This document shows, one piece after another, positions 55,733 through 55,810 of a DNA stretch of 64,000 nt. Made by a program: the position numbers and the translations under genes. This stretch comes from Victivallaceae bacterium (GTDB taxonomy: Bacteria; Verrucomicrobiota; Lentisphaeria; Victivallales; Victivallaceae), in the NCBI GenBank assembly GCA_024405735.1, contig JAKSOF010000005.1:1-64000 (forward strand), given 5' to 3'. The stretch's first letter is position 1. Every line of letters begins with the position of its first letter. Under the pieces are notes generated by a model. It was not told the DNA's origin, searched no databases, and saw only the letters and a list, made by a program, of their open reading frames with translations.

Positions 55733-55787
55733 GCAAGCAAGCAAGCAAGCAAGCAAGCAAGCAAGCAAGCAAGCAAGCAAGCAAGCA
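55733..55787. repeat. Tetranucleotide simple repeat (GCAA)13.75
   Basis: Thirteen full GCAA units and a partial one. Long tetranucleotide tracts change length by slipped-strand mispairing and are classical phase-variation devices in host-associated bacteria. It lies about 205 bases upstream of the Wzz-like start, so it could tune promoter or leader function rather than a reading frame. Confidence 0.95.
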
Positions 55788-55810
55788 GTTATAAATATAA
55801 CTGCTTGCTT
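55779..55810. repeat. Perfect 32-bp palindrome at the end of the GCAA repeat
   Basis: Two 15-bp perfect arms (55779-55793 and 55796-55810) around AA. The left arm is the last part of the GCAA tract, and the right arm contains its inverse. It could form a cruciform, act as a transcription terminator on either strand without a T-run, or help drive repeat slippage. Confidence 0.9.

Follow-up and report, generated by a model that had tools for sequence, protein, structure and literature searches.

A GCAA repeat in a predicted leader ahead of a probable polysaccharide co-polymerase gene of a Victivallaceae bacterium, and related arrays in the Lentisphaeria

The array and its surroundings

The window, i.e. 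the complete stretch of 64,000 nt that was analysed, contains a period-4 array at 55733–55787, which TRF reports with a 100% match, 13.8 copies, and a score of 110; the second-best array of the window has a score of 66. No other (GCAA)5+ array occurs in the 1,894,308-base genome, which belongs to the Victivallales (Lentisphaerota). The repeat of 13 GCAA units ahead of a gene, noticed in the original prediction, is confirmed. The array is stop-free in every frame and reads Lys-Gln-Ala-Ser (KQAS) in all three. It leads into hairpin 1 (Table 1), which had been described as a perfect 32-bp palindrome and is actually an inverted repeat of 15+2+15 bp, with 100% complementary arms (55779–55793 and 55796–55810) and a spacer of 2 nt (AA). 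Hairpin 1 is the only perfect inverted repeat with 15-bp arms in the window, and the predicted fold of the RNA 55720–55830 is 3.1 s.d. better than those of shuffled sequences.

The candidate promoter of the leader transcript is weak on its own, as 19.5% of the shuffles score equally well. The ORF that starts with the ATG at 55699 enters the array, but it lacks a clear Shine-Dalgarno motif and has to compete with the ATG at 55683, from which the ORF stops at 55722, short of the array. The stops of the window leader were computed for unit numbers (n) of 9 to 19. The repeat unit is not a multiple of three, so that it is able to shift the frame, and the stops at 55792, 55847, and 55956 follow n mod 3. 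As assembled (n = 13), the leader ORF is in the short frame, which is predicted to be the OFF state. The stop of the long frame lies 34 nt upstream of the ATG of the downstream gene. No intrinsic terminator was found between the repeat and the gene in the window copy. The read-out at this locus is uncertain because the start site is weak and a terminator is not recognisable.

Table 1. Features of the predicted leader and the downstream gene in the window (n, number of GCAA units)
Feature	Positions	Strand	Basis
Candidate promoter of the leader transcript, TTGAAA-17-TACATT	55621–55649	+	Consensus scan
Leader ORF at n = 13, MLTSLRHFEINC + KQAS repeats	55699–55794	+	Direct translation; stop 55792–55794 inside the hairpin
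(GCAA)13 array	55733–55784	+	TRF; 13 complete GCAA units, then GCA
Inverted repeat (hairpin 1), AAGCAAGCAGTTATA-AA-TATAACTGCTTGCTT	55779–55810	+	Inverted-repeat search; (GCAA)13 runs into its 5′ end
Third frame, n = 12, 15, or 18	55785–55849	+	Computed; stop 55847–55849
Long frame, n = 11, 14, or 17	55785–55958	+	Computed; open from the array, stop 55956–55958
Ribosome binding site of the downstream gene, AAGGAGAA	55980–55987	+	Sequence
Probable Wzz/Wzc-like polysaccharide co-polymerase gene, proposed to be switched	55993–57477	+	ORF, 494 aa; homologues; Foldseek

The product of the downstream gene (gene 55993) has homologues in relatives with 21–42% identity. It has transmembrane helices at the termini and a long helical middle, a layout that fits both the alignment and the model. 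The product did not match any Pfam or NCBIfam family at the thresholds used. A model built with seven homologues has a pLDDT of 73, and its best matches among solved structures in Foldseek are Wzc polysaccharide co-polymerases (E 1e-4, probability 1.0, with a TM value of only ~0.25). One homologue matches Pfam Wzz weakly (E 0.0036). The product is regarded only as a probable Wzz/Wzc-like co-polymerase, and the original label “Wzz-like gene” is plausible but weakly supported. Among the homologues with upstream DNA, none was found to be preceded by a leader array, so the switch was either gained at the window locus or lost in the relatives. Gene 55993 is located between genes for an alpha-L-fucosidase and a GH20 hexosaminidase (53672–55420 and 58503–60008) and not in a polysaccharide-synthesis locus.

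Related leaders and their reading frames

The last GCAA unit, the hairpin, and GCTTGC were combined into a composite search pattern. It was matched in 27 of the 137 genomes of the order, mostly at one place each, and in 46 stretches of a collection that covers 84,980 species. According to their titles, 31 of these belong to the Lentisphaeria/Victivallales, including Victivallis vadensis DSM 14823; the remaining 15 contain just one unit each and resemble palindromes that arose by chance. Three-unit matches to the array pattern in G142, G154, G159, and G162 have no leader features and are apparently chance or coding matches. The number of units in the composites ranges from 1 to 33, the sample being one genome per species, mostly metagenome-assembled, so that these values are possibly consensus or truncated numbers. 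A contig end coincides with the array in 14 of the 31 Lentisphaeria/Victivallales stretches, as expected if arrays defeat assembly. Unexpanded leaders with 1–2 units are present at L089, L103, and L062.

The expansion of units is confined to the 5′ arm, upstream of the stops, and the 3′ arm is never expanded in the relatives. The hairpin stems are of CCTTTATT, CAGTTAT, and CATTTATT types. The usual stem is CCTTTATT/AATAAAGG, compared with CAGTTATA/TATAACTG in the window and CATTTATT/AATAAATG elsewhere; these matched differences between loci indicate that pairing is kept. At four loci (L082, L094, L106, and L107), hairpin 1 is followed by tandem units of ~90 nt that are based on this hairpin and have an enlarged branched loop, and those of L082 read as 30-residue in-frame repeats that keep the long frame open. 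The idea of a REP, integron, or dif element fits poorly with one to three places per genome and a fixed position before genes, and no match was found that would point to a phage origin of the leader.

In loci with upstream DNA, the array is usually entered by an ORF that begins with ATG. The leader of L035, e.g., has TTGACA-17-TATATT, an AAGG, and an ATG that precedes the array by 28 nt. At the equivalent place, L035, L094, and L097 have better promoters than the window; these three beat nearly all shuffles, and the promoters of other loci are not significant. The leader start MRTTTATTAFKMPLYG... is common to several genomes. Its DNA was found at nine places in the 137 genomes, eight of them in such leaders, most of which run into the GCAA region, with several reaching the contig end there. 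The imperfect repeats that precede the array of L045 lack stops in every frame over 234 nt. The N-terminus of the leader is under weak protein-level constraint (pN/pS 0.58, versus 0.64 and 0.76 in the other frames).

The loop of hairpin 1 usually stops two frames after the array. In each of the 24 loci that have a good intrinsic terminator, one frame or more is open from the array through this terminator. Dinucleotide shuffles gave an expectation of 10.2 of 24, and none of 200,000 simulations reached 24. Related loci are not fully independent; counted as approximately independent groups, 14 of 14 have an open frame (product p ~5e-6). Two frames are open in some loci, so “exactly one” open frame is not universal. 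The long-frame peptide shows neither conservation nor codon periodicity; selection therefore appears to act on openness, and openness alone is claimed here. In the loci measured, the distance from the long-frame stop to the gene ATG ranges from −4 to +86 nt, with an overlap (−4) in L035 and L106. As assembled, 15 of 18 leaders, including that of the window, are in a short frame and 3 are in the long frame.

Genes behind the arrays

In the Lentisphaeria loci that were read, a gene on the same strand starts after the array, usually within 100–300 bases, and has its own ribosome site. The genes vary by genome. They encode SPFH/zinc ribbon proteins, a sigma factor with a protein kinase, a PEGA lipoprotein, an MBOAT acyltransferase, surface proteins (AIDA autotransporter, BspA-type LRR, and clostripain/PMP surface protein), radical-SAM/SPASM maturases with a small peptide, an MmeI-type restriction-modification enzyme, a GT2, and NusG/UpxY-like antiterminators that are followed, where looked at, by polysaccharide-type genes. 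Of this cargo, the AIDA autotransporter, the LRR and PMP surface proteins, the UpxY-type polysaccharide loci, the GT2, and the MmeI-type enzyme are of phase-variable kinds, as is a C5 DNA methyltransferase whose ORF contains an array.

Several loci were characterised individually. The nearly complete genome G125 has three GCAA leaders (L192, L193, and L194), each before a polysaccharide-type locus, and two of the three loci start with a NusG/UpxY-like gene. In G088 (L181:1-1347, minus strand), 24 GCAA units follow a short interrupted block and precede the MmeI-type enzyme. The hairpin variant of the window is also found in G026 (L175:109-4440), where the long frame occurs at n = 5; this leader precedes small peptide genes and two radical-SAM/SPASM proteins, i.e. 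a RiPP-like locus. In G129 (L188:450-1535, minus strand), a C5 DNA methyltransferase ORF carries (GCAA)7 in frame at its 5′ end. Direct switching of this ORF is possible, making the methyltransferase a candidate for phase variation of the simple frameshift kind.

Leaders share DNA similarity up to a median of 144 nt past the hairpin, where the terminator of the genus type ends, indicating that the leader is modular. In a wider reading, which we consider as likely as not, the leaders would be a modular switch cassette that has spread through the class Lentisphaeria and renders any operon behind it phase-variable. The cassette would consist of a promoter, a leader start, a repeat without stops in any frame by which the frame is randomised, a hairpin that reads it, and a terminator. 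The operons concerned would include restriction-modification enzymes and polysaccharide loci that begin with UpxY-type antiterminators.

Proposed switching mechanism, alternatives, and known systems

We propose that the array is probably a phase-variation switch in a translated leader of gene 55993, coupled to attenuation or to downstream translation. A transcript from near 55656 would carry the short leader ORF. Replication slippage within a strain would alter the number of GCAA units, each unit displacing the frame of the leader by a single base. Ribosomes in the short frames, with stops at 55792 (n = 13) or 55847 (n = 12 or 15), would quit the leader early, transcription would end prematurely, and the gene would be poorly expressed. 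In most relatives the premature end would occur at the intrinsic terminator; for the window, we infer Rho-dependent termination or missing translational coupling, either of which would fit the same logic. In the long frame (n = 11, 14, or 17), translation would continue to 55956, close to the gene start, and would block termination or feed initiation, presumably the ON state. Phase variation in four-base steps at a probable surface-polysaccharide gene, as originally predicted, is supported by the comparison, namely by the cargo classes and the three-frame architecture of related arrays. The earlier reading was incomplete in that the upstream leader ORF, the long frame, and the relatives had all been missed.

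The part of the prediction that is not supported is the cruciform as the key element. The arrays of L178, L179, L187, L189, and L194 lack this palindrome and still lie before polysaccharide-type genes, and most of them have an open frame and a terminator. The first three combine array, open frame, and terminator without the hairpin, and two of these three belong to a different family of the class (f21). The visible contribution of the palindrome appears to be that of a leader element, in which the short frames have their stop codons in most loci. It is very improbable that the array tunes transcription through changes in promoter spacing or DNA shape, combined with a palindrome that extrudes as a cruciform or is bound by a protein. 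The upstream position of the array and the strength of the palindrome would suit such a role. Against it stand the predicted promoters upstream of the arrays, which would therefore be transcribed, the reading-frame evidence, and L178, L179, and L187, which have no palindrome directly after their arrays. We see scarcely any likelihood in an untranslated structured RNA, i.e. a riboswitch or antitermination leader, beside an incidental repeat. The fold of the genus-type leader is very good (z −7.2 in the case of L070) and comprises four hairpins with some covariation, but an Rfam search of the window region gave no family match, the cargo genes are unrelated, and the stop-free frames together with the leader ATG favour translation.

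The leader switch may instead be purely translational, with the long leader ORF ending beside the gene and delivering ribosomes to it and no terminator involved in the window copy. The absence of a recognised terminator there, the 34-nt distance, and the overlaps in L035 and L106 are compatible with this version. We regard it as rather unlikely, as the long frame of most relatives passes precisely through the site of a strong terminator and the gene has a good ribosome site of its own. That the array is a neutral microsatellite devoid of regulatory effect, with slippage seeded by the AAGCAAGC arm of a hairpin conserved in the leader, is improbable. Leaders with one or two units and the erratic unit number would be in line with neutrality; in contrast, expansion on the 5′ arm only, the frequency of open frames through terminators far above chance, the cargo classes, and the array inside the methyltransferase ORF argue against it.

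The proposed leader switch resembles the proven phase-variable attenuation switch of the pil1 locus of Streptococcus gallolyticus, whose leader peptide contains GCAGA repeats (Danne et al. 2014, PMC3894217). When the repeat changes out of frame, the peptide extends into a terminator or beyond it and the pili are turned ON, with switching at ~5e-3 per cell per generation. The arrangement at pil3 is the same (PMC3894217). Common to pil1/pil3 and the relatives described here is a non-triplet short tandem repeat in a leader ORF before an operon (a surface operon in pil1/pil3), with short frames that stop before the terminator and a longer frame that runs into or through it. The systems differ in the repeat (GCAA versus GCAGA), the phylum, the many gene classes seen here, and the conserved hairpin that carries the stops in many copies, and the Lentisphaeria leaders are known from sequence alone. 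No terminator was found in the window copy; lacking this defining element, it is described as a variant that would work like a pil1-type attenuator and is not filed as a member. As in the translation-mediated attenuator of the E. coli trp leader, translation of the leader would decide terminator formation, but the signal here would be a heritable repeat number and not ribosome stalling on a scarce tRNA.

In the open-licence papers searched, no report of phase variation or of such repeats in Victivallales/Lentisphaerota was found, and the known cases of phase variation by leader-peptide attenuation are two pilus loci in a single streptococcus. The leaders would represent, if confirmed, a general mechanism by which a class of gut-associated bacteria varies its surface polysaccharides, adhesins, and DNA methylation, and the ON/OFF state of each locus could be predicted from the repeat number, which is readable in metagenomic reads. 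Tetranucleotide repeats likewise shift the frame of surface-structure genes in the contingency loci of Haemophilus influenzae (e.g. PMC2651432, PMC3938747). In contrast to these loci, the window and most relatives carry the array in a separate leader, outside of the gene. The methyltransferase array of G129 is of the simple H. influenzae kind.
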